From: Bacilli bacterium
Lineage (GTDB): Bacteria; Bacillota_I; Bacilli_A; RFN20; CAG-826
Length of the DNA stretch: 42,838 nucleotides
Direction of reading: 5' to 3'
Assembly: GCA_024409055.1 (NCBI GenBank)
Contig: JAKSUL010000008.1
Span: 1 to 42,838 of the forward strand
The position numbers and the translations under genes are program-made. Shown here piece after piece: positions 6,526 to 42,838 of this stretch (position 1 is its first letter; every line of letters starts with the position of its first letter). The notes below the pieces were generated by a model. The model was not told the DNA's origin. It searched no databases and was given only the letters and a program-made list of their open reading frames with translations.

Positions 6526-7182
6526 ATGATTATTAATTTTTTGGGTGATTCCATCACCGAAAGCGCCGGAGCTTCCTCCCCGGAAAAAGGATATGTCGCA
6601 GTTGCTTCTTCTTGCTTAGGGGCGACCGGACGCAATTACGGAATCGGAGGAACTCGCATCGCCGTTCAAAAAATGCCGACTTTGAGAGCTCCGTTATTCG
6701 ATCAAACCTTCTATTCGAGAGCCCTTACCATGGAAAAAGACGCGGACGTTGTCTTTGTCTTTGGCGGCACGAATGACTTCGGACACGGAGACGCCCTCAT
6801 GGGTGAGATGGATTCCTTTGACCCATACACCTTCTGCGGCGCGGTCAATCACCTCTTCGCATACTTAGCCAAGGAATACGGCAAAGAGAAGGTCGTCATC
6901 CTTCTTCCAATCCATCGTTGGGACGAAGATTCGGATAGGGGAGACAACTACTGCTTGAAACCAGCCCCTGTCGGAACTCTTGAAGATTATCGCGCCGTCT
7001 TGAAGAAAGACGCTGAAAAATACGGCTTCCTCGTTGCCGATCTTCGCGAAGCCCTTGGAAAGCCATCCTCGAATAAACCCGAAAGCATGTTTATCGATGG
7101 TCTCCATCCAAACGATGCCGGACATAAAAAGCTCGGCGAAGAAGTCGCCAAGTTTATTAAGGAACATTTCCCTAACAAATAA
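6526..7182 (+). CDS. SGNH/GDSL-family hydrolase
   Basis: A 218-residue serine esterase or lipase of the SGNH fold. Block I is LGDSIT with the catalytic Ser at residue 9. The Gly of block II is in NYGIGG. Block III is GGTNDFG, with the oxyanion Asn. Block V is DGLHPNDAGH, carrying the Asp-His of the triad. No signal peptide is present, so it acts in the cytoplasm. Likely substrates are acyl or acetyl esters, possibly on sugars; the specificity is unknown. It is a single-gene unit with a -10 box almost touching the ATG and a strong bidirectional terminator. Confidence 0.92.
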   Translation: MIINFLGDSITESAGASSPEKGYVAVASSCLGATGRNYGIGGTRIAVQKMPTLRAPLFDQTFYSRALTMEKDADVVFVFGGTNDFGHGDALMGEMDSFDPYTFCGAVNHLFAYLAKEYGKEKVVILLPIHRWDEDSDRGDNYCLKPAPVGTLEDYRAVLKKDAEKYGFLVADLREALGKPSSNKPESMFIDGLHPNDAGHKKLGEEVAKFIKEHFPNK

Positions 7183-7190
7183 AGACATAA

Positions 7191-7214
7191 AAAACTCGGA
7201 GCGATCCGAGTTTT
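7191..7214. terminator. Bidirectional terminator between convergent genes
   Basis: AAAACTCGGA and TCCGAGTTTT form a perfect 10-base stem with a GCGA loop. U-runs lie on both sides, serving the SGNH gene and the CYTH gene. The stop codon of the CYTH gene lies inside it. Confidence 0.9.
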
Positions 7215-7785
7215 ATTTTTGAATGGCTTTGAAAGCGCGACCCGTTTTGCTGATTTTATTGAACGATACGGGTATGCCGTTTCTTTCTAAGAGGCCTCTT
7301 AATATGTTTTCGGCTCCATCTTTATCGCTATATTCGAATTCGACTTCGTAATCGACTTGATTCGAGAATTCGTTTTTGTCGATAGATAATAGTCCGCCTT
7401 CGTATGATACGTCGGTGCGTGTAGTGGTGAGATGGGTGATGATATATAAATCTTTGGTGTTCACGCAAAGCGATTTTAAGAAATCCTCGACTTCGCCGTT
7501 TGGGAATTCGCCTCTTAATTTATAGGCCTCGAATTCTTCTTCGCTGATGTTTTGGTTCTTCTCCAATAAGCCTTCATCGATTGGCTTTTTCAAAGTCAAT
7601 TCATGCTGGCCTTTTTTCGTCCTGATACGAAGCGAAACGCCTTTGCTTTTGAGAACTCTATTTTCTGTATCTATGTAATAGTTAGTTTGCTTATAACTTG
7701 GCAAGTCCTTGAAAAGGGCGACTAGTTTTTGATAGTTGTTTTCGCTAACGAGGACTTTGGCTTCGATTTCAACGGCGTTTGGCAT
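7213..7785 (-). CDS. CYTH-domain protein (YjbK-like)
   Basis: A 190-residue single-domain CYTH protein (triphosphate tunnel family: adenylate cyclase IV, thiamine triphosphatase). The N-terminal EIEAK signature is present. The basic/acidic strands that line the tunnel are visible: YYIDTENRVLKSKGVSLRIR, HELTLKKP, YEGGLLSIDKNEF and DYEVEFEY. In Firmicutes the family is represented by YjbK; activity on inorganic triphosphate or similar substrates is the family expectation. It is transcribed divergently from the EIIB-like gene, from overlapping -10 boxes. Confidence 0.9.
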   Translation of the reverse strand: MPNAVEIEAKVLVSENNYQKLVALFKDLPSYKQTNYYIDTENRVLKSKGVSLRIRTKKGQHELTLKKPIDEGLLEKNQNISEEEFEAYKLRGEFPNGEVEDFLKSLCVNTKDLYIITHLTTTRTDVSYEGGLLSIDKNEFSNQVDYEVEFEYSDKDGAENILRGLLERNGIPVSFNKISKTGRAFKAIQK

Positions 7786-7801
7786 ATTCTTTTCTCTTGT
7801 G

Positions 7802-7812
7802 TGGTATTATAT
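7802..7812. promoter_or_regulatory. Overlapping divergent -10 boxes
   Basis: One AT segment reads TATTAT on the plus strand (7805-7810, preceded by TGG). It reads TATAAT on the minus strand (7806-7811). It can drive both flanking divergent genes: the plus gene starts 7 bases away and the minus gene 20 bases away. Confidence 0.6.
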
Positions 7813-7817
7813 CAACT

Positions 7818-8222
7818 ATGATGACAATCTATGATGGATTAACCCCAAAACAAGAATTTAACCAATGGTTAGCTAATAACGGCATATGGCTCGCGATAGG
7901 CGTGGCCGCTTTAATAGTTATCGTCGTTGGCGCTATATTCCTTAGCGGCGCTATTAAGAAAAAGAACGCCAAACCGGAAGCAAAACCAGTCAATGCCTCG
8001 ATGTATATGGAAGCTTTAGGCGGAGAAGATAACGTAATCTCCAAAGAGCTTAGAGGATCCCGCATCGCTTTGGTCTTAAAAGACTACAAGGCAATCGATG
8101 AGGCTAAGCTAAAAGAGGCCGGCGTGGACGCCATCGTCATGATGAGCGATAAATTGACCCTCGTCGTAAAAGAAAACGCCCCGAAGGTGTTCGAGACGTT
8201 GTTCGGTCAGAATTTGCAGTAA
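7818..8222 (+). CDS. Membrane-anchored EIIB-like protein lacking the phospho-cysteine
   Basis: A 134-residue protein. It has one transmembrane helix (about residues 20-45, GIWLAIGVAALIVIVVGAIF), a charged linker, then a domain resembling the glucose-type PTS EIIB fold. That domain runs MEALGGEDNV, then RIALVLKDYKAIDEAKLKEAGVDAIV. In true EIIB domains the motif CITRLR follows the first helix. Here the aligned stretch is ELRGSRIALVL with no Cys, so it cannot accept phosphate the normal way. A sensing or structural role is more likely. The start is one of the tandem ATGs at 7818/7821; longer frames begin upstream of the promoter. The last 16 bases overlap the convergent maf gene. Confidence 0.72.
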   Translation: MMTIYDGLTPKQEFNQWLANNGIWLAIGVAALIVIVVGAIFLSGAIKKKNAKPEAKPVNASMYMEALGGEDNVISKELRGSRIALVLKDYKAIDEAKLKEAGVDAIVMMSDKLTLVVKENAPKVFETLFGQNLQ

Positions 8223-8749
8223 AGGGCGATATCTTCGGTCGGAAGCCCCATGACGTTGTCATAGCTTCCTTCGATCCTATCGATCAGATCGCATCCATCC
8301 TGAATCCCATAAGCTCCTGCTTTATCCAGGGGCTTTTTCTTTTGCACGTATTCCCTGATCTTTTCTTCGCTAAGCTTGTTGAAGTAAACATCGGTCGATA
8401 CGGTTCTGGTCAAGGAGTCCCCGTTTTTATCGATGAATGTGTATCCGGATAAGACGGTTTGCTTTTTGCCTGATTCCTCTAGAAGCATCTTCACTGCGTC
8501 TTCTTCGTCTTTTGGCTTTCCTAAGACGCGGCCATTTAGTAAGACGATGGTGTCACAACTAAGGATTATGTCATTTGGACGAAGTTTCCTGACGGCTTCG
8601 GCTTTTAGTTTGCTTAGTTCGGCAGGAAGAGATTCCGGGGGAACGGAAACGTTATCTTCGTCGACGTCTGGGGAGACGATATCGAATTCTTTTACCAGTT
8701 TCTTAAGGAGTTCTTTTCTCCTAGGGGAACTGGATCCTAAGACGATCAT
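8207..8749 (-). CDS. maf: Maf-family nucleotide pyrophosphatase
   Basis: A 180-residue Maf/YhdE-type enzyme that hydrolyses non-canonical or excess nucleoside triphosphates such as dTTP, UTP or m5UTP. The signature GSSSPRRKELL is at the N-terminus. SCDTIVLLNGRVLGKP holds the catalytic Asp. A TVSTDVYF/KAGAYGIQ segment follows, as in Maf. The length is normal. The ATG overlaps the RNase J stop in an ATGA, so the two are translationally coupled. The 3' end overlaps the convergent EIIB-like gene by 16 bases. Confidence 0.95.
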   Translation of the reverse strand: MIVLGSSSPRRKELLKKLVKEFDIVSPDVDEDNVSVPPESLPAELSKLKAEAVRKLRPNDIILSCDTIVLLNGRVLGKPKDEEDAVKMLLEESGKKQTVLSGYTFIDKNGDSLTRTVSTDVYFNKLSEEKIREYVQKKKPLDKAGAYGIQDGCDLIDRIEGSYDNVMGLPTEDIALYCKF

Positions 8750-10416
8750 TGGATGTTCATGATGACCGGGATGATCATCGGGTTCCTTTGAGTCTTGCGG
8801 TGGATGTATTTGGCCACGACCGTCTTGATGGTGCTTTTGATTTCACCAAAGGTGACTTTCTTTTGCATCAAGTCATTGATGGCTTCCGCGACATAAGTCT
8901 GAGCGTGGCGGACGACGTGGCTATCCATGGTGGCTCCGAATCCGCGAGGATAGACGATAGGATTGGTGATCATCTTGTTCTTTCTGGAATCGATGGTGAC
9001 TAAGACAGCCACCATGCCGTCGGACTTCAATATTTCGCGGTCGTTGATGACGGCGGAGCTCACTCCGTCTAAATCGTTTCCGTCGATATAGACGTTATCG
9101 GCGGGTACATGTCCGCCTCTAGTGACTTCGTGGTTATATAAAGACAAGACGTCGCCGTTATCACAGATAAAGCAGTGGTCTTTGGCCAAGCCTACTTGCT
9201 GAGCGAGTTCGCTGTGGAGCTTGAGCATGCGGTATTCGCCGTGGACTGGGAAGAAATACTTCGGGTTGACGATCTTTTGGATTAAGCGGAGCTCTTGGCG
9301 GCTTGGGTGGCCGGAACTGTGGAGAGAGAAGGCGATGGAGTTCTGTTTGACGTCAGCGCCCATCTTTACGAGATTATTGACGAGCTTATCGATCAAAGCG
9401 CCGTTTCCCGGAATTGGGTTGGAGGAGAAGACGACGGTGTCGCCCGGGAGAATGGAGATGGTCTTGTGCTCGTGGTTGACGATTCTAGAAAGGGCCGCCA
9501 TAGCTTCGCCTTGGCTGCCGGTGCAAAGGATGCAAATCTCGTTTAACTTATAGTTACGAACCATCGTGTCATCGATTAAGGAAGCGTCCGGAATCTTGAT
9601 ATATCCATATTTTCTGGCGATGGAGACGACGTTGATCATCGAACGTCCCAAAACGCAGATTTTACGATTATGTTTAACGGCGACTTCAACGACTTGCTGA
9701 ATACGGTTGATGTTGCTGGAGAAGGTCGAAACGATGATGCGTCCAGGGGCTTTATCGAAGATATCTTCGACGCCGGCTTTGACGTTCCTTTCGGAAGGGG
9801 TGTATCCCTCGATTTCGGCGTTGGTGCTATCGGCCATGAGAAGATCGACGCCTTCGCTGCCGAGTTTTGCTAATTTATTGAGTTCGAAGTTCGGGCCGAC
9901 TGGGGTAAGGTCGACTTTGAAGTCACCGGTTTCGACGATACGGCCTTGCTTGGTGTCGACGCAGATACCGAAGGCATCTGGGATTGAGTGGGTGACGCGG
10001 AAGAAGGAGACTTTGAAATCATCTCCGATGTTGATGACATCGTCAGCGTCGTACTCAACGATCTTGATCGGATCCTTGATGCGGTTATCTTCAAGTTTAT
10101 GGCGGATTAAAGCGGCGGCTAAACGCGGCGCGTATATGACGGGGACATTGATGCTTCTGATTAAGAAGGGGATGCCGCCGATATGGTCTTCGTGACCGTG
10201 GGTGATGAAAAGGGCCTTAACTTTCATCCTGTTGTTCTTGAGGTAGGTATAGTCCGGTATGACGTAGTCGACGCCAGGAAGCGTAGCTTCGGGGAAACGG
10301 ACGCCGGCATCAATCAAAATAAGCGATCTCTCGCTTTCGATTACGTAAGTGTTTTTACCGACTTCTCCAAGTCCGCCTAACGCGTAAATGCTAACAGGGG
10401 ATTCTAATAAGGCCAT
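8746..10416 (-). CDS. rnj: Ribonuclease J
   Basis: A 556-residue metallo-beta-lactamase/beta-CASP nuclease, the 5'-3' exonuclease and endonuclease that drives mRNA decay and rRNA maturation in Gram-positive relatives. The metal site HGHEDHIGG is at about residue 75. Further family motifs are VTHSIPDA, ETGDFKVD, ADSTNAE, TCTGSQGE-like and SGHPSRQEL, followed by FPVHGEYRML. The C-terminal domain is full length. The start is the ATG at 10416 because AGGAGGT sits 7 bases upstream; longer frames run through the leader. TATAAT at 10452-10457 gives a leader of about 30 bases. It is co-transcribed with maf. Only one RNase J copy is in this window. Confidence 0.97.
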   Translation of the reverse strand: MALLESPVSIYALGGLGEVGKNTYVIESERSLILIDAGVRFPEATLPGVDYVIPDYTYLKNNRMKVKALFITHGHEDHIGGIPFLIRSINVPVIYAPRLAAALIRHKLEDNRIKDPIKIVEYDADDVINIGDDFKVSFFRVTHSIPDAFGICVDTKQGRIVETGDFKVDLTPVGPNFELNKLAKLGSEGVDLLMADSTNAEIEGYTPSERNVKAGVEDIFDKAPGRIIVSTFSSNINRIQQVVEVAVKHNRKICVLGRSMINVVSIARKYGYIKIPDASLIDDTMVRNYKLNEICILCTGSQGEAMAALSRIVNHEHKTISILPGDTVVFSSNPIPGNGALIDKLVNNLVKMGADVKQNSIAFSLHSSGHPSRQELRLIQKIVNPKYFFPVHGEYRMLKLHSELAQQVGLAKDHCFICDNGDVLSLYNHEVTRGGHVPADNVYIDGNDLDGVSSAVINDREILKSDGMVAVLVTIDSRKNKMITNPIVYPRGFGATMDSHVVRHAQTYVAEAINDLMQKKVTFGEIKSTIKTVVAKYIHRKTQRNPMIIPVIMNIQ

Positions 10417-35708: not shown

Positions 35709-36743
35709 TTGGATCCTGATAGTTGGCAATATTACGTACTCCTCATAGCCGGTCTTATCTTCTTTTTGGCTATGTGTGCCTTCTATTCGAGCACGGAAAC
35801 CGCTTTTGGCTGCCTCAATAAATACAAATTCAAAGTAGAAGCAGAAGAAGGAAATAAAACCGCCAAGCGAATTCTTTGGCTATACGAACACTTTGAAACG
35901 ACGCTTGTCACCGTTTTGATCGGTTACAACGTTTTTTCCGTTGCAATCTCAACCGTTTCGACCATCATCTTCGTCAATTTCTTCTCTTTTCTTGGAATGG
36001 ACGAAGTCGTTTCTTTGGTGACTTCTTTGGTCATCTCAATAATCGTCTATCTTTTTGGCGACACCATTCCAAAGCTCATCGCCAGAAAGATGCCGGACAG
36101 AACCGCAAGGACCTCTGTTTACCCGATGTATTTCTTCGTTGGCTTATTTCTCCCTGTTTCGTTGTTATTTAGGGGAATATCCGCTTTGGTGAAGAAGGTA
36201 TTCAACACCAAGACTCCGCCGGAAATTACCGAGGAAGACTTCCATAACGTCGTCGAAGCCATCGAAGAAAAAGGCGACCTCGAATCCAATGAAACAGACA
36301 TCATCCAAGCTTCTTTTGATTTCGCCGACACCAAAGTCAAAGAGGTTTTGACGCCAAAGAGCAAGATGACGATGTTAGACCTCAAAGGATTGACTCGCGA
36401 AAAACTCCATCGCTTCTTGAATGAAACCAATTTTTCCCGCATCCCTTGCTACTACGAAAACCAAGACAAGATCGTCGGCGTCTTGGTCGTCAAAAACTAT
36501 TTGAATGCCTATCTCCAAGATAGAAACGTCGCTTTGAAGCCTCTTCTTCAAAAGCCGTATTTTGTCACTCCCAAAGTCAATTTGGATGATTTGATCGATG
36601 GCTTTAGGAAGAACAAGACTCAGATTGCCATCGTTAGATACGAAGGAAAACTCGTCGGAATGGTCACCACCGAGGATTGCCTTGAAGAACTCGTGGGAAG
36701 AATCGATGAGAGGGTTATGGAGAAAAAGGAGGCTAACTTATGA
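35709..36743 (+). CDS. CNNM/CorC-family membrane protein with CBS domains (first of a pair)
   Basis: A 344-residue HlyC/CorC-family protein. The N-terminal DUF21/CNNM domain has helices at about 10-30, 60-85 and 90-110 and the motif FYSSTETAFGCLNKYK. A CBS pair follows (VKEVLTPKSKMTMLDL, then KTQIAIVRYEGKLVGMVTTEDCLEELVG). It lacks the C-terminal CorC domain, unlike its neighbour. Family members move or sense Mg2+/Co2+. The start is TTG at 35709, since no ATG lies before the first helix; the AAAGG site is a little far, so this start is less certain. The stop overlaps the next ATG. Confidence 0.87.
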   Translation: MDPDSWQYYVLLIAGLIFFLAMCAFYSSTETAFGCLNKYKFKVEAEEGNKTAKRILWLYEHFETTLVTVLIGYNVFSVAISTVSTIIFVNFFSFLGMDEVVSLVTSLVISIIVYLFGDTIPKLIARKMPDRTARTSVYPMYFFVGLFLPVSLLFRGISALVKKVFNTKTPPEITEEDFHNVVEAIEEKGDLESNETDIIQASFDFADTKVKEVLTPKSKMTMLDLKGLTREKLHRFLNETNFSRIPCYYENQDKIVGVLVVKNYLNAYLQDRNVALKPLLQKPYFVTPKVNLDDLIDGFRKNKTQIAIVRYEGKLVGMVTTEDCLEELVGRIDERVMEKKEANL

Positions 36744-38038
36744 AATTAGTCACCGTTATCTACATAATCGTTATTGCGATCCTCGTTGTTTTGTCTGGTC
36801 TTTTCTCATGCGCCGACATCACTTATTCGGTCGTTAACCGACTTCGCTTAGAAAAAGCTGCCAAAAAGTCCAAAACGGCGAAGAAGGCTTATCAATATGC
36901 CCTTAATTACGACAAAACGATCGCCACGATTCTTTTCTCCAATAACTTCGTCAATATCGTCGCCTCTTCTTTGGCCACTTTATTGGCGGCTCAGCTATGC
37001 CAAATGGGCTTCATGGGCGGAGATGACGGCCTTTCCAAAACCGTCATGTCCATGATTCTCCTCGTCGTTATCTTGATATTCGGCGAAATACTTCCGAAAG
37101 CCATAGGAAGGGTCTATTCCTATAGCCTTTCGTTGATGTTTGTCCCTCTTGTCGAAGTATGTAGGGTCGTTTTCTTCCCTGTCGTCTGGCTCACTTCAAA
37201 GATCGCCAACGGAATCGCCTCCCCCTTCACAAAGGGTGCCAAAGACGAATTACCAAGTGACGAAGAACTTCAGAGGATGGTCGAAGACATCGAATCTGAA
37301 GGCATAATTGACGAGACAGATCGCGAACTCATCAGCGCTTCTATCGAATTCAAAGAGACGGCCGCTTATGAAATCATGACCCCAAGGATGCGCTTAGTGT
37401 GCATCAACAAAAATGAGGACCTAGCCTCTTTCGCTAAGATGCACCCCGAGAGGATGACCCATAGCCGCCTCCTTATCTATAACCATGATTACGACCATAT
37501 CTTGGGTTATATTCCGACTAAGACCGTCCTTAAGGCCTTGGCCAATAACGCCAATCCGAGCATCGAGTCTTTGCTTATGCCTATTATTTCCGTTCCTAGG
37601 ACGATGGAGATTTCCGGCGTTCTCCGTTTAATGAAAAGAAGCCATCACCATATTGCCCTTGTCCGCGATGAATACGGTGGAACCGAAGGTATATTGACCC
37701 TTGAGGATATCTTGGAAGAACTCGTTGGTGAGCTTTATGACGAGTCCGAATCCGTCAAAGAAGATGTGGTGGAGATGAGGAAGAACGTCTTCTTGGTCCA
37801 AGGAAGCATGAACATCGATGATTTCTTCGAAAGATTCAATCTCAACGACGATTTGATCGACGAGGATTACAACACCTTGTCTGGATGGATAAACGATAAG
37901 CTCGGTGGATTTGCGGATAGAAACGACAAGTTCTCATATGAGAAGATAGATCTTAAAGTGAAAAAAGCCACTGAATATACAGTCGAAGAAGTCGAAGTCG
38001 TCTATCACCCAAGGAGGAAGAAGACCCCGCATGCTTAA
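36740..38038 (+). CDS. CNNM/CorC-family membrane protein with CBS and CorC domains (second of a pair)
   Basis: A 432-residue paralogue of the preceding protein. The N-terminal CNNM domain (LSGLFSCADITYSVVNRLR), the CBS pair (AAYEIMTPRMRLVCI and HHIALVRDEYGGTEGILTLEDILEELVGEL) and a complete CorC/HlyC domain (KNVFLVQGSMNIDDFFERF and DYNTLSGWINDKLGG) are all seen. It is translated from an ATGA overlap with the first copy. Tandem pairs of this family may work as a heteromer. Mg2+ efflux or homeostasis is the family expectation. Confidence 0.93.
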   Translation: MKLVTVIYIIVIAILVVLSGLFSCADITYSVVNRLRLEKAAKKSKTAKKAYQYALNYDKTIATILFSNNFVNIVASSLATLLAAQLCQMGFMGGDDGLSKTVMSMILLVVILIFGEILPKAIGRVYSYSLSLMFVPLVEVCRVVFFPVVWLTSKIANGIASPFTKGAKDELPSDEELQRMVEDIESEGIIDETDRELISASIEFKETAAYEIMTPRMRLVCINKNEDLASFAKMHPERMTHSRLLIYNHDYDHILGYIPTKTVLKALANNANPSIESLLMPIISVPRTMEISGVLRLMKRSHHHIALVRDEYGGTEGILTLEDILEELVGELYDESESVKEDVVEMRKNVFLVQGSMNIDDFFERFNLNDDLIDEDYNTLSGWINDKLGGFADRNDKFSYEKIDLKVKKATEYTVEEVEVVYHPRRKKTPHA

Positions 38039-38870
38039 ACAATCGAAATGGTTAGATAAAAAGATTCCGTCTTTGGAAGGCAAGGTCTTCCTTTTGACTG
38101 GCTGCTCGTCTGGGTTAGGGCTCGAAGCCCTCAAGTCACTTCTATATAAAGGGGCGGAAGTCATTGGCTGCGTTAGGAATCTAAAAAAGATGGAGGCTTT
38201 GTTCGAAGGCATCAAAAAAGAGCTCCCTTCCTCAAAAGCCACCTTCATGGTTTACGATCAAGCCGATCCTTCTTCCTGCCTTGCTTTAGCGGAGTCTCTT
38301 AAAGACAAGAAGATCGATTCCATAATCTTGAATGCTGGCATCTACTACCCGGCGAAGGGAGCGGTCTCTAATGACGGAACCAGCTTAACCGACCAAGTAA
38401 ACATCGTTGGCCAATACCATCTTTTCGAAGCCTTTAGGAAAACTCATCCGACATCCCATTACGTTTTCGTCACCTCGCCATATCACATCAAACCCAAAAA
38501 AGGCGGATATGTGGCTCGTTTGTACAAATATCAGCCCAAAAGAGGGAAGGACTACGCGATCAGCAAGGAATACGCTAGAGACCTATATTGCTACGCTAAA
38601 AAATTGGGCCTATCTTGCTCGATAACCCATCCAGGCGTTTCGGGTACCGCGATATTCGATGGTTTCCCGCCCGCTATCCGTAGAACTGGACACGCTGTTT
38701 TGACGGCGTTAACCCATAAGCCTTGGAAAGCCTCCCTAGGCGAGGTCTTATGCGCAGCGAATCCTGGCAAGGATTATTTCGCTGTCCCTAGAGGTCCATT
38801 CCATATTTCTGGATATCCAAAAGTCATTAAATCTCCAAAAGGCCCGAATTACCCGGTGGAGATAAAATAA
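38031..38870 (+). CDS. Short-chain dehydrogenase/reductase
   Basis: A 279-residue SDR. The cofactor motif TGCSSGLGLEA (TGxxxGxG) is near residue 24. LNAGIYYP is the NAG motif. The catalytic Ser is in VFVTSPYH and the YxxxK in YAISKEYA. The N-terminal 15 residues precede the Rossmann fold. The stretch IKPKKGGYVARLYKYQPKRG makes a basic loop. Substrate unknown. It begins 8 bases inside the CorC gene, so it is the third gene of that transcript. Confidence 0.9.
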   Translation: MLKQSKWLDKKIPSLEGKVFLLTGCSSGLGLEALKSLLYKGAEVIGCVRNLKKMEALFEGIKKELPSSKATFMVYDQADPSSCLALAESLKDKKIDSIILNAGIYYPAKGAVSNDGTSLTDQVNIVGQYHLFEAFRKTHPTSHYVFVTSPYHIKPKKGGYVARLYKYQPKRGKDYAISKEYARDLYCYAKKLGLSCSITHPGVSGTAIFDGFPPAIRRTGHAVLTALTHKPWKASLGEVLCAANPGKDYFAVPRGPFHISGYPKVIKSPKGPNYPVEIK

Positions 38871-38890
38871 AAAACGGCTTTTCACCGTTT
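38866..38890. terminator. Terminator between the SDR and guanylate kinase genes
   Basis: AAACGG and CCGTTT with a 6-base loop. The minus side has a long U-run, so it mainly serves the guanylate kinase gene. Confidence 0.65.
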
Positions 38891-39421
38891 CTTAAGTTCT
38901 TCGACGTAATTTCTATAAACAAGATCGGTCAGTTCCTCAACTGATCGATTTTCTGTATTTATGCGGAAGTCGACTTTGGCGATTCTTTCTTCTTTGAAGG
39001 CTTCGCGGTCGTTTTCGATTCGCTTGGCGATGTCCTCGTTCTTGTCTCCGCGGCCTCTCATCCTCATTTCCCTGATGTTTTCGGGGCATTCTAGATAAAA
39101 GGTGATGACGTGAGGATCGTTTAGGGCCAAGAAAGACTTCAAACCGTTGGGATCGACGATGACGGCCTTGTCGTCTGCGACCTGGGCTTTTGAGCACCCA
39201 TAATAACGGCCGTTATAGAAGGTCGTTTCGACGAACTCGTCTTTTTCTTTTAATTCCTCGAACTCCGAGATTGTGACGAAAAAATAATCGACCCCATTTC
39301 GTTCTCCGTCTCTAGGGGAGCGTGAAGTGTGGGTGATCGCCTTAACGATCCCATATTTATCGGCTAGCTTTTTGGCAATTTCCGTTTTTCCTGAAGCGGA
39401 GGCTCCAACAAGAATAATCAT
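38882..39421 (-). CDS. Guanylate kinase-family protein
   Basis: A 179-residue kinase of the GMP kinase fold, converting GMP to GDP. The P-loop is GASASGKTEIAK, whereas housekeeping Gmk proteins usually carry GPSGVGKGT. The GMP-binding THTSRSPRDGERNGVDYFFV (TSR-PR-GE-DY) and the RMRGRGDKNEDIAKRIEND lid are intact. Length is a little below the usual 200. It could be the only Gmk or a second, divergent copy. The promoter TATAAT (39428-39433) ends 6 bases before the ATG. Confidence 0.85.
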   Translation of the reverse strand: MIILVGASASGKTEIAKKLADKYGIVKAITHTSRSPRDGERNGVDYFFVTISEFEELKEKDEFVETTFYNGRYYGCSKAQVADDKAVIVDPNGLKSFLALNDPHVITFYLECPENIREMRMRGRGDKNEDIAKRIENDREAFKEERIAKVDFRINTENRSVEELTDLVYRNYVEELKKR

Positions 39422-39433
39422 GTTGCAATTATA
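39422..39433 (-). promoter_or_regulatory. -10 box next to the guanylate kinase start
   Basis: A perfect TATAAT on the minus strand, only 6 bases from the ATG, the shortest spacing in the window together with the GNAT gene. Confidence 0.6.
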
Positions 39434-39503
39434 ACTATTTTTTCATTTTCTTTGCCCTTTTTTCGTTTTGCGAAACTACATATAGGTAGAGGGAGTTTGA
39501 AAA

Positions 39504-39830
39504 ATGAAATCAATGAGAAACGACCAAGTTCAATCGATTATCAACAAAATGGTCAGGGCCTCTCTTTTAGAAATTGGGTATGGCACGAGTGCGCACATAT
39601 ACGATATAAGACCGTGCGATTTGGCTAAAACGTCCCCCGAAACCGAGATCATTAAGAACGCGATTAGGCTTTATGAGTCATTAGGGACGTTGGACCGGAT
39701 GATTTTGCGGGCTGAGATTTTTGAGAAAGGACGTTATTACATGTATTGGTATCTTCCTTACGCCAACAGCAAAGCCTATTCGAAGAAAAAGAAGAAGGTC
39801 ATAGATTTGGCCGTGAGGACCTTCCTATGA
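39504..39830 (+). CDS. Unknown 108-residue protein at the head of the Tad-like locus
   Basis: A soluble basic protein with no recognised family. It carries an Arg/Tyr-rich middle (LRAEIFEKGRYYMYWYLPYANSK) and a Lys tract (YSKKKKKVIDL). AGAGGGAG precedes the ATG. The stop overlaps the ATG of the next gene, so it belongs to the Tad-like operon. It may be a cytoplasmic accessory factor; function is unknown. Confidence 0.7.
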   Translation: MKSMRNDQVQSIINKMVRASLLEIGYGTSAHIYDIRPCDLAKTSPETEIIKNAIRLYESLGTLDRMILRAEIFEKGRYYMYWYLPYANSKAYSKKKKKVIDLAVRTFL

Positions 39831-40852
39831 ACAAAGGCCTTCTTTCTTTAGCGTTGCCTCTATTTAGTCTTTCCGTGTGCTCGGCGGGGGAAAGTGCGAC
39901 TTTCGGAATGTTCCAAGACCAAAATTTCGCTCCTCTTAGCCGGACCGAAGACAAAACTTATTCGGTCACGTTTATCTCGAACACCACCTTTTCGGGAAGG
40001 ATGGAAATAACCCTGTTTAATCCTTTTTTGGATGAGCCCGAAATCTTATATGCCTCTAAATCTATGGAGGCTTTCACTAGCGGCGTTCCTGTCACTAGGT
40101 CATTCGTGGTCCCGTTTGATTTCGTCGCGGTCAATGACAACACGTTAAGCTTTGGGGTTTTGGCGCTGAATGGCAAATACGCGGGGACTTGGGTCAAAAA
40201 GACCGTCACTGTCCCTTACGGCGAACCGATAATCGGCAAAAACCCAATTTCGAACGCGACATTAAGAGGGGTGGATTGTTATTTTGCCTTTAGAAACGGC
40301 GAGTTGATCAAAGGACACGGCCAATACGTTATAACGCCGCACGAAAAAGAAATATACGACCCGCCTTTTAACAAACTCCAAATGGGGTCTACGTATTTGA
40401 CATATACGAATACGGCCTATTCATTGAGTTTCAAAGGGAAGGCGAAGGTCAATCTTTACACTTGCCTGGATCAATTCGATGTTGGCTGGATCTCTTATAA
40501 CGGGAGGACCCTTTACCGCAATTTCATTGGCGATCCTTTTGCTTTGGTCTTTGGCGATAAGACGAGGATCGGTGCTCGTTTATCGGGCCAATACGCCGTA
40601 TCAAGGCAAAACCTCGTCATGAAAGAAGCGAACAAACTCACGGAAAACGACTTCTTATCTCCTGAGCTTTTCTTCCCGGTCGGAAGAGGCCCGATTGACT
40701 CGGTTTATAGAGTCAGGATTTCTTTTGAAGAACTATTTGACACGTCCGATTCGATATATTTGGAATTCAATATTCATCGCACCTCTTGGCATTTTGGCCC
40801 TTCTTTCTATAGCGACTATTGCATTGGCATAGGGGAGGGAGAACATGTCTAA
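39827..40852 (+). CDS. Secreted protein of unknown function in the Tad-like locus
   Basis: A 341-residue protein with an N-terminal signal sequence (residues 1-20, MNKGLLSLALPLFSLSVCSA) and a large beta-rich exported domain. The Cys in SLSVC is not in a good lipobox, so signal peptidase I is more likely. No catalytic motif is seen. The start at 39827 lies in an ATGA overlap; longer frames in this phase lie inside the upstream gene. The pilin-like gene overlaps its end by 8 bases. It may be a surface or pilus-associated component (inference). Confidence 0.75.
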   Translation: MNKGLLSLALPLFSLSVCSAGESATFGMFQDQNFAPLSRTEDKTYSVTFISNTTFSGRMEITLFNPFLDEPEILYASKSMEAFTSGVPVTRSFVVPFDFVAVNDNTLSFGVLALNGKYAGTWVKKTVTVPYGEPIIGKNPISNATLRGVDCYFAFRNGELIKGHGQYVITPHEKEIYDPPFNKLQMGSTYLTYTNTAYSLSFKGKAKVNLYTCLDQFDVGWISYNGRTLYRNFIGDPFALVFGDKTRIGARLSGQYAVSRQNLVMKEANKLTENDFLSPELFFPVGRGPIDSVYRVRISFEELFDTSDSIYLEFNIHRTSWHFGPSFYSDYCIGIGEGEHV

Positions 40853-41243
40853 CATCCTTTTGTGGGGAACCGTGCTTATATTCGCCCTCAGCACGTTTGG
40901 CTATACGTATTCATTGTCTGGCGTAAACAGGGCATTTTATGGGTGTTTCAAGGCGATAGCCGAAACCTCGGTCATCGCTTATGACAAAACGGGCGTTTCT
41001 GCTAGCCCATACTTTTCCAAAAGCCTATTCGAAGAGAAGTGCGAAGAATATTTCGCTTTGGCTTTAAGACCATATACAAGCGTTTATTTCCTGAGTTTTT
41101 ATTTCTGCGACAAGGATACCAAAAAAGAAAGCGAATACCCTACGCAGGCTGAAGTGTGTTTGTCCTGCAAAGTGTATACGAAGAAGCATTACATGCGTTC
41201 GGCGTCTTTTTTCATCGAGGAGGGGAAACATGGAGGCAAATAA
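40845..41243 (+). CDS. Pilin-like or TadE-like small membrane protein
   Basis: A 132-residue protein with an N-terminal hydrophobic helix (about 4-24, LLWGTVLIFALSTFGYTYSL) and a small outside domain with five or more Cys. The shape, size and place between an exported protein and a secretion ATPase fit a pseudopilin or TadE-like protein, but no G/A-E prepilin cleavage site is seen. The ATPase gene starts 14 bases before its stop. Confidence 0.55.
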   Translation: MSNILLWGTVLIFALSTFGYTYSLSGVNRAFYGCFKAIAETSVIAYDKTGVSASPYFSKSLFEEKCEEYFALALRPYTSVYFLSFYFCDKDTKKESEYPTQAEVCLSCKVYTKKHYMRSASFFIEEGKHGGK

Positions 41244-42195
41244 GATTTCCGAATTTGTGTCGAGCAGCTTTCTTTCCCCAATTTTGTCCATGGAGAACGT
41301 CACCGATATTTCTTATAACGGCGAATCTATCTTTTATGAAGATTCTCTTCGCGGCAGAAACAAATACCAAAGAACGATATCCAAAGAGACGGTAGGGGAT
41401 TTTCTAAGGCAAATAGCCAACATGGCGGAAAAGCAGTTCTCGTACCAATCACCGATCCTTGACGTTTCGTTTTCAGGTTTTAGGTTAAACGCGGTGTTTT
41501 TGAGTTTAGCCAGGATAAACGACGAGAAGTCTTATTCGTTCACTTTGCGCATTGCTCAGCGCGGAAGCAAGGTGAAACGAGGAAGTTCTTTCTTTGGGGA
41601 AAAAGCCGAAAAGATACTTTTAGACGCCTTAAAGAAAAGAGCCTCGATAGTGATATCGGGCCCCACATCAAGCGGCAAGACCGAACTTCAGAAGTTCTTA
41701 ATGATGAATATGCCGGAATCGATGAGAGTTATTTGCATTGATAACGTGGAAGAGCTTGAGATGGTAAGAGGCGATACTGAAATCGACCTCACGTCTTGGC
41801 TAGTTGATGAACGATATCCCGATTCTTCTTTTGGCGCGCTTATTAGAAACGCTCTAAGGAGTAATCCCGATTACATAATCGTGGCCGAAAGCCGCGGGAA
41901 AGAAATGCTGGACGCTTTAAATAGCGTCATGAGCGGTCACCCCATAATCATGACGCTTCATAGCAAAGATCTCCTCTCCATTCCTCATAGAATGGCCAGG
42001 ATGGCGATGATGGGGGAGCAGAAGCTTATTTATGAGGATGTCTTGAGTGATGTGTACCACGCTTTTTCTTACTGTGTGTATTTGGTCAAAAAGGAAAAAG
42101 AAGACGGATCTATCGAAAGATACATCGAGTCAATCGGAATCCTAAATGAGGCGAAGATGGGCATGGATGTCCTTTATAGGAGGGAAGAAAAATGA
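41230..42195 (+). CDS. CpaF/TadA-like secretion ATPase
   Basis: A 321-residue hexameric ATPase of the VirB11/CpaF family that powers type IV filament assembly. The N-terminal domain (VTDISYNGESIFYED) is followed by Walker A SGPTSSGKTE (about residue 144) and the Asp box ICIDNVEELEM. Walker B is YIIVAESRGKEMLDAL, and the His box is MTLHSKD. It is shorter than most CpaF proteins, which have a long N-terminus. GAGGAGGGG precedes the ATG. Its stop overlaps the TadB-like start. Confidence 0.88.
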   Translation: MEANKISEFVSSSFLSPILSMENVTDISYNGESIFYEDSLRGRNKYQRTISKETVGDFLRQIANMAEKQFSYQSPILDVSFSGFRLNAVFLSLARINDEKSYSFTLRIAQRGSKVKRGSSFFGEKAEKILLDALKKRASIVISGPTSSGKTELQKFLMMNMPESMRVICIDNVEELEMVRGDTEIDLTSWLVDERYPDSSFGALIRNALRSNPDYIIVAESRGKEMLDALNSVMSGHPIIMTLHSKDLLSIPHRMARMAMMGEQKLIYEDVLSDVYHAFSYCVYLVKKEKEDGSIERYIESIGILNEAKMGMDVLYRREEK

Positions 42196-42838
42196 AAAAA
42201 ATCCTTCCCTACATAGTTTTCTTAATCGTCTCGTCTCTTTTCGGGGCATTGGCGTTTTATATGTCCGGGAATCTTATTTTCTTCATCGGCGTTACTTTGG
42301 TTTATTTCTTGGAGTGTGCGTTCCTCATATTGCCGATGGAGAAGAAACGTTCCTATTTAGAAAAGAAGAGGCATCAGGCTTTTCGCTTCGTATCGAGTTT
42401 TGTCGTTTCGTATTCCCTTAGTCTTTCTTACGAAAGGGCGTACGGTAACGCGATCGAGGGATATGAAGGCGAATACCAGGAGATAATCGAAGCGATATCA
42501 ATGAAAGGAGTGGGGGACAGGATCCGCTACTTGGCCTCGTATTTTGAATCGAATCTCTACGATCTTTTCGTTAACCTTCTTGATATATTCGAAAATCAGG
42601 GCGGAGATCCTTTAAGCGTTTTTTCAGGAATCATGGAGGAATTCTCGAGGCTTGAAGAAAGCGAGGACGCTCTTTTGAGGGAGAAAAAGAGAACCTTAAA
42701 GGAGGTTGCCCTTCTTTGGTTCTTTGCCTTTTTGATATTCGTCTTCATGAGATTTGGCCTCAATAGTTTTTACGATGACGTTAAGTCTTCCCTTCTATAC
42801 ATCGGATCGATGGCCCTATTTTTCGCTTTTTTCGCCTT
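42192..42838 (+). CDS. TadB/T2SSF-like inner membrane protein, cut by the window end
   Basis: The frame opens at ATG 42192 in an ATGA overlap and stays open to the last base (215 residues seen). Two hydrophobic helices lie at the N-terminus (about 3-22 and 27-47). A cytoplasmic four-helix region follows with GGDPLSVFSGIMEEFSRLEES, typical of T2SSF/TadB platform proteins. More helices start at about 175 (VALLWFFAFLIFVFM) and near the end. Such proteins work with the adjacent ATPase. It is partial. Confidence 0.78.
   Translation, partial: MKKILPYIVFLIVSSLFGALAFYMSGNLIFFIGVTLVYFLECAFLILPMEKKRSYLEKKRHQAFRFVSSFVVSYSLSLSYERAYGNAIEGYEGEYQEIIEAISMKGVGDRIRYLASYFESNLYDLFVNLLDIFENQGGDPLSVFSGIMEEFSRLEESEDALLREKKRTLKEVALLWFFAFLIFVFMRFGLNSFYDDVKSSLLYIGSMALFFAFFA

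Follow-up and report, generated by a model that had tools for sequence, protein, structure and literature searches.

The right end of the 42838-base stretch of Bacilli DNA analysed here (the window, which is one whole contig, G000:C78) carries five overlapping open reading frames (ORFs) on the + strand, between 39504 and 42836. With slightly better than even confidence, we regard them as the 5' half of an operon for a minimal Tad-type (type IVc) filament, passed on vertically, that assembles unprocessed pilins. In the proposed mechanism a TadA hexamer would power a membrane platform of TadB and TadC, the platform would extrude very short Flp-like pilins (family F7) as a filament, two further small proteins (families F4 and F6) would form an initiating tip or minor-pilin complex, and an exported, beta-rich protein would lie at the tip or close to it and face outward. 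The F7 pilins, which start with MSEIKGQ, would be made without an ordinary leader and would not be trimmed, so that no prepilin peptidase would be needed. It seems that this bacterium and others related to it have given up the pilin-trimming enzyme and make the building blocks of the filament short from the start.

Every start in the set lies inside the end of the preceding gene. The ORFs encode, in this order, a short helical regulator-like protein of 108 residues (39504..39830), the exported protein (39827..40852, 341 residues from the ATG at 39827), the minor pilin-like F6 protein (40845..41243, 132 residues, with a hydrophobic N terminus without a leader and with 21 orthologues aligned), a TadA-type ATPase (41230..42195, 321 residues) and a TadB-like platform protein (42192..42836). 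The set is interrupted by the right end of the contig; the last gene is incomplete because the assembly stops there, and it encodes 215 residues, open at the 3' end, of an orthologue family of about 240. The second half of the operon was located with a TadC profile on another contig of the same genome (G000:C35, locus L228), whose first bases fall inside TadC. It consists of the 3' part of TadC (L228:3-461), which follows the TadB-like gene, the TadF-like F4 protein of 112 residues (L228:451-789) and the Flp-like pilin F7 of 61 residues (L228:805-990), behind which lies acpP, the gene for acyl carrier protein (about L228:1056-1277). The two contigs were not joined; judging from the relatives, a short gap across the tadB/tadC junction lies between them. 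Thus the compact, five-gene Tad-like locus described in an earlier note on this DNA, with overlapping ORFs, a short TadA, a TadB-like protein, a small membrane protein and a familyless exported protein, was confirmed. The same note had reported Flp, TadV and RcpC-like genes to be lacking within the window, which for Flp is true only there. Reading the genes at the locus in relatives (L033-L053) revealed no TadV-, RcpC- or TadZ-like gene, although no profile search was made for RcpC/CpaB or TadZ/CpaE and RcpC/CpaB was not searched for genome-wide. Looking past the contig end, as the note had advised, yielded TadC and the pilin; the prepilin peptidase, also expected there, was found nowhere in the genome by its A24 profile.

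Of 61 relatives searched for the ATPase, 44 had a match; five of these (G038, G039, G044, G050 and G057) were set aside as weak or PilB-type only, leaving TadA-type ATPases in 39. In the 21 loci that were read, 20 from relatives and one (L033) from an uncultured Bacilli bacterium, isolate Reindeer_2_mag_86, the gene order was constant: regulator-like protein of the MG284 family, exported protein, F6, TadA, TadB, TadC and F4. F7 was present in all 21 loci of this first set; in single loci a few genes were miscalled by the simple gene caller. TadA is 53-59% identical within the genus of the window and only about 31-59% identical in relatives with the same gene order, and conservation of the order at such distances shows that the genes are real. 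Since this order is shared across the bacterial order to which the window belongs, it points to vertical inheritance of the operon rather than to a recent acquisition, and the view that the system is unusual for a small-genome relative of the Bacilli is not supported.

The ATPase matched Pfam T2SSE (8.3e-20), TIGR03819 (TadA, 2e-29) and VirB11 (3.5e-31), the latter two each below their own cut-off. Its profile found CpaF structures near 1e-27, VirB11 and 2oap (named as a type II secretion system protein) being also among the relatives, and the ATP-binding and catalytic motifs are conserved. VirB11-type secretion was considered, as VirB11 scores about as well as TadA, but is disfavoured because the platform partners are of the GspF type. 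The TadB/TadC pair is present in the relatives, and the two proteins are homologous to each other (HHalign 96%); Pfam T2SSF matched seven of 20 TadC members. Pfam TadF matched F4 in three of 21 members (best 2.5e-4), and F6 compared with F4 gave an HHalign probability of 29% (E 6e-4); F6 itself could be assigned to neither TadE nor TadF. An ATPase, a platform and a pilin thus occur in one system, if F7 is taken as the pilin by its size, position and N terminus. The system does not look like a ComG competence pilus: the ATPase is nearer to TadA/VirB11 than to ComGA, the genome has no A24 match and the operon has no KGFTxxE pilin. Neither a normal ComG operon nor a complete Tad operon with known homologues, either of which would have contradicted the earlier note, came to light, and most of the genomes have no peptidase over the cut-off.

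Peptidase_A24 was searched for at E 0.001. There was no match in the genome of the window, and only eight of the 61 relatives matched; of the 39 relatives with TadA, 33 had none. Among the 35 high-completeness genomes of this first set 20 have TadA, and 18 of these lack A24. Relaxing the limit to E 10 in 18 chosen genomes brought nothing over the cut-off, the sub-threshold matches being those in G038 (0.0067, with stops) and G022 (0.8). The window's family was sampled with 21 more genomes, including G286, which is a single contig, and again no match passed the cut-off (in G353 the match was 0.27). With the sets combined, a recognisable peptidase is missing in 54 of 60 TadA-bearing genomes of the order. 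Among 14 named genomes taken as controls, the same search was positive in 12; it was also positive in all 25 genomes examined from other families of the class, which have distant TadA or related Tad systems. Six of the eight A24-positive relatives have TadA, and each of these has a match to a PilB-type ATPase at a distance of 2-7 kb from its peptidase. Three A24-positive loci were read, two from these six (L223 and L225) and one from the other two relatives (L224); all have ordinary type IVa pilus (T4aP) genes and canonical prepilins, which in L223 and L225 are KGFTxxE prepilins accompanied by PilB-, PilC- and PilD-like genes. The T4aP-type locus L225 also encodes, at 7064-9976, an unusually large pilin-like protein of 970 residues whose prepilin start, KGFTLIE, is ordinary. 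Both the anatomy of the Tad-like system and its lack of an A24 peptidase are well supported.

In the genome of the window F7 starts MSEIKGQMLGLVLVLAVFG and is preceded by a strong ribosome site. A search pattern in which residue 6 was limited to A, G, S or N and residue 11 was left free found 44 copies, spread over 43 of the 45 loci; one further locus, L109, carries a variant with Asn5. In 42 of the 44 copies a Shine-Dalgarno-type motif lies within 18 bases of the start, and in 29 no other in-frame start occurs back to the preceding stop. Residue 11, which would be at +5 after a cut at residue 6, is I, V, M or L in all 44 and never Glu or Asp. F7 is therefore a short pilin-like protein rather than a typical Flp with Glu at +5 and Tyr at +6 after a TadV site. 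Two registers are possible from these sequences: residues 1-6 may be a minimal leader with G or A at residue 6 and no Glu at +5, or F7 may be leaderless, with Gln7 in the position of the ordinary Flp Glu5. We favour the second, because other families of the class encode Flp-like proteins that start with MKxxxxE, some with EYGL, at the same distance from the start, and canonical Flp has Glu at +5 and Tyr at +6, as given by Imam et al. (PMC3244431). In some of these MKxxxxE proteins residue 6 is Glu or Ser; if the first register applied, a peptidase should not tolerate either residue there. The genomes that encode them do carry A24, so their support for the second register is only suggestive; the short start may predate the loss of the peptidase, as it occurs in other families. 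Examples are the Flp-like proteins of L180, L181 and L185, which begin MKxxxxEYGL, without an ordinary leader, in A24-bearing genomes.

Several observations weigh against unprocessed pilins in a Tad machine. Residue 6 of F7 is G in 39 and A in five of the 44 copies, which is the residue class that the peptidase needs (the pattern having allowed A, G, S and N), and a review gives prepilin leaders of 6-26 residues (PMC4471445), so that F7 could be read as having a six-residue leader, MSEIKG|Q. F7 has no Pfam Flp match and no family match of note, and Pfam T2SSF recognises only one of 20 TadB members. The divergent locus L184 has an ATPase and no F7 nearby. A weak, partial A24 match, below the cut-off, was found in G380 (8.7e-5, a 94-residue frame in a region viewed as an ORF list only), and a very divergent or non-A24 peptidase may exist. 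A rival proposal is that the six-residue leader is cut by a peptidase that the A24 profile does not see, so that the Tad pilus would be an ordinary one and only its peptidase unusual. This proposal, which we consider improbable, gains from the G or A at residue 6 of F7 in all 44 copies and the Gln at residue 7 in 43, although the pattern gave few alternatives at these positions, from residue 6 of F4, which is G, S or A in each of the 21 members aligned, and from the minor pilin-like proteins of another family (f17), whose genomes carry A24 and in which G is frequent at residue 6. Against it, F6 has no such site, and some F4 proteins have Ser at residue 6, where, according to PMC10191384, Gly or Ala is required. 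Moreover, the A24 search that worked in the controls and in the related Tad systems passed the cut-off, among TadA-bearing genomes of the order, only in the six with a second, PilB-type ATPase. Judged from the sequences, a Tad machine working without cleavage is likely.

For the order as a whole we tentatively suggest, as a scenario we would not yet call probable, that filaments are built from short pilins that were never processed, that the unprocessed start (Gln7 for Glu5) came first and made the peptidase dispensable before it was lost, and that some families later lost motor and pilin and kept the exported protein, the platform and the minor pilins as a fixed membrane complex. Such loci were seen in two other families of the order (f3 and f4). 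In all six that were read (L091-L094, L120 and L121) the ATPase and F7 are both absent, and TadA at 1e-25 had no match in the nine f3/f4 genomes listed. The exported protein (HHalign 95%, E 2e-8), F6 (85%, E 6e-6) and F4 (97%, E 1e-10) are kept, and a single membrane protein of 290-377 residues takes the place of TadB and TadC, its N-terminal half aligning weakly to TadB (E 0.0016) and its C-terminal half to TadC (E 0.005). These motor-less families could also be taken to mean that the locus is a decaying Tad relic leaving a shrinking genome. Genomes that read TGA as Trp would fit this as well, as all that remains in them before acpP is a regulator-family protein and two more that are sized like the next two, and so would an f1 locus (L189, from G319) in which two short ORFs, in the 490 or so bases upstream of tadA, seem to be the pieces of a divided F6 gene. 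Decay is nevertheless quite unlikely in view of the genus-level identity of TadA with its ATP-binding and catalytic motifs, the nearly invariant start region of F7 and the strong ribosome sites that are kept. L184, which belongs to the window's family but is divergent, has two exported-looking proteins in the place of F7 and keeps F4 beside its ATPase.

The loci in TGA=Trp genomes (most of L095, L097-L099 and L122-L138) often have the MG284-family regulator, a protein of about 375 residues and a membrane protein of about 140-210 residues in a row before acpP. In M. genitalium, acpP is MG287. The mycoplasma-type regulator is homologous to the window's family (HHalign 97.6%, E 4e-12). Comparison of the two middle proteins with the exported protein and F6 gave probabilities of 0.4% and 1.0% (E 0.17 and 0.06); they have no known relatives here, and the regulator alone is demonstrably shared. 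As no relationship of the middle proteins to the exported protein or F6 was detected, a mycoplasma remnant of the pilus is not claimed. Nothing relevant was found in the literature on MG284-286/MPN403-405.

Of the two proteins that had been said to match no recognised family, only the exported one still fully answers this description. It had no Pfam or NCBIfam match, its 22 orthologues yielded scattered single matches only, and it evolves very fast (10-21% identity to orthologues); its structure model consists mostly of strands, at low confidence (pLDDT 35). The 108-residue protein scored below the cut-off for NCBIfam NF045770 (MG284/MPN403; E 0.0012, 18.8 bits against 37.3), whereas several orthologues in the same operon place, for example those in G034 and G032, score above it, so that by way of its orthologues the protein probably belongs to this family; when 395 genomes of the class were sampled, 102 had a match to it. 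Its model is helical (mean pLDDT 61, moderate confidence) and had no significant match in the PDB by Foldseek; the non-significant matches included several sigma factors.

As to function, adhesion is our preferred guess, by analogy with Tad systems generally (PMC12786226) and in view of the fast evolution of the exported protein. The machine might instead be a short membrane pseudopilus for DNA uptake with ComEA and ComEC rather than an extended adhesive pilus, a possibility to which we give little credence. A ComEA-like gene directly adjoins ComEC in the window's genome (contig C42), and a Tad pilus reportedly takes part in DNA uptake, to go by the title of PMC8513845. However, ComEC was found in 28 of 39 genomes with TadA and in 13 of 22 without it (Fisher p 0.40), and ComEA-like genes in 35 of 39 and 19 of 22 (p 0.70). 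Being alike with and without TadA, these distributions speak neither for DNA uptake nor against it; the fast-evolving exported protein better suits an outward-facing role.

Upstream of the operon and divergent from it lies the guanylate kinase gene gmk (38882..39421, - strand; Pfam Guanylate_kin 1.8e-21, family F5), which occupies this place in most of the close relatives read; acpP is often found downstream. The 82-bp intergenic region (39422..39503) presumably holds the operon promoter, although no sigma-70-type promoter match was found within it. Further upstream, at 35709-38038, are two tandem membrane proteins (family F0), kept in many relatives and by eye presumably CBS/HlyC-like. No distant DNA match for 38800-42838 was found in a plasmid collection, and a plasmid origin was discarded.

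If the proposal is true, a lineage with motor, platform and pilin and no peptidase means that cleavage is not intrinsic to assembly, and it offers a natural test of the purpose of cleavage and of Glu5; the graded series within one order (full, motor-less, none) shows the dismantling of such a machine. Two sources treat the cutting of the leader by a dedicated prepilin peptidase as central to the assembly of type IV filaments (PMC10191384, PMC4471445). Among the papers listed by a literature search none was, by its title, about unprocessed type IV pilins, which is no proof that they are unpublished, and for RF39 and RFN20 nothing on these groups was among the matches listed.

Compared with the Tad/type IVc pilus (CpaF-TadBC-Flp), the locus is alike in its TadA-type ATPase, TadB/TadC pair, TadF-like minor pilin, very short pilin and single operon. 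It differs in that the search for an A24 peptidase (TadV or other) was negative, reading of the locus showed nothing like RcpC or TadZ, the pilin is without an ordinary leader or Glu5, and the operon encodes instead an exported protein of no known family and a member of the MG284 family. The tad locus of Bulleidia extructa, also in a reduced-genome member of the Erysipelotrichales, is described in PMC12786226 as horizontally acquired and begins with tadV, whereas the present locus is syntenic across the order and its peptidase was not found. Gram-positive tad-like loci without any prepilin motif were listed by Imam et al. in 2011 (PMC3244431), and resemble ours in having Tad genes and no proteins with an ordinary prepilin motif, but the loci listed there include tadV, tadZ and rcpC. 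MSH pilus loci likewise lack a peptidase gene; according to Denise et al. 2019 (PMC6668835), those genomes encode the peptidase in another system, whereas most genomes here have none elsewhere either. The Nanoarchaeota have type IV filament genes for which, according to PMC4471445, no prepilin peptidase was detected either, but these are archaeal.

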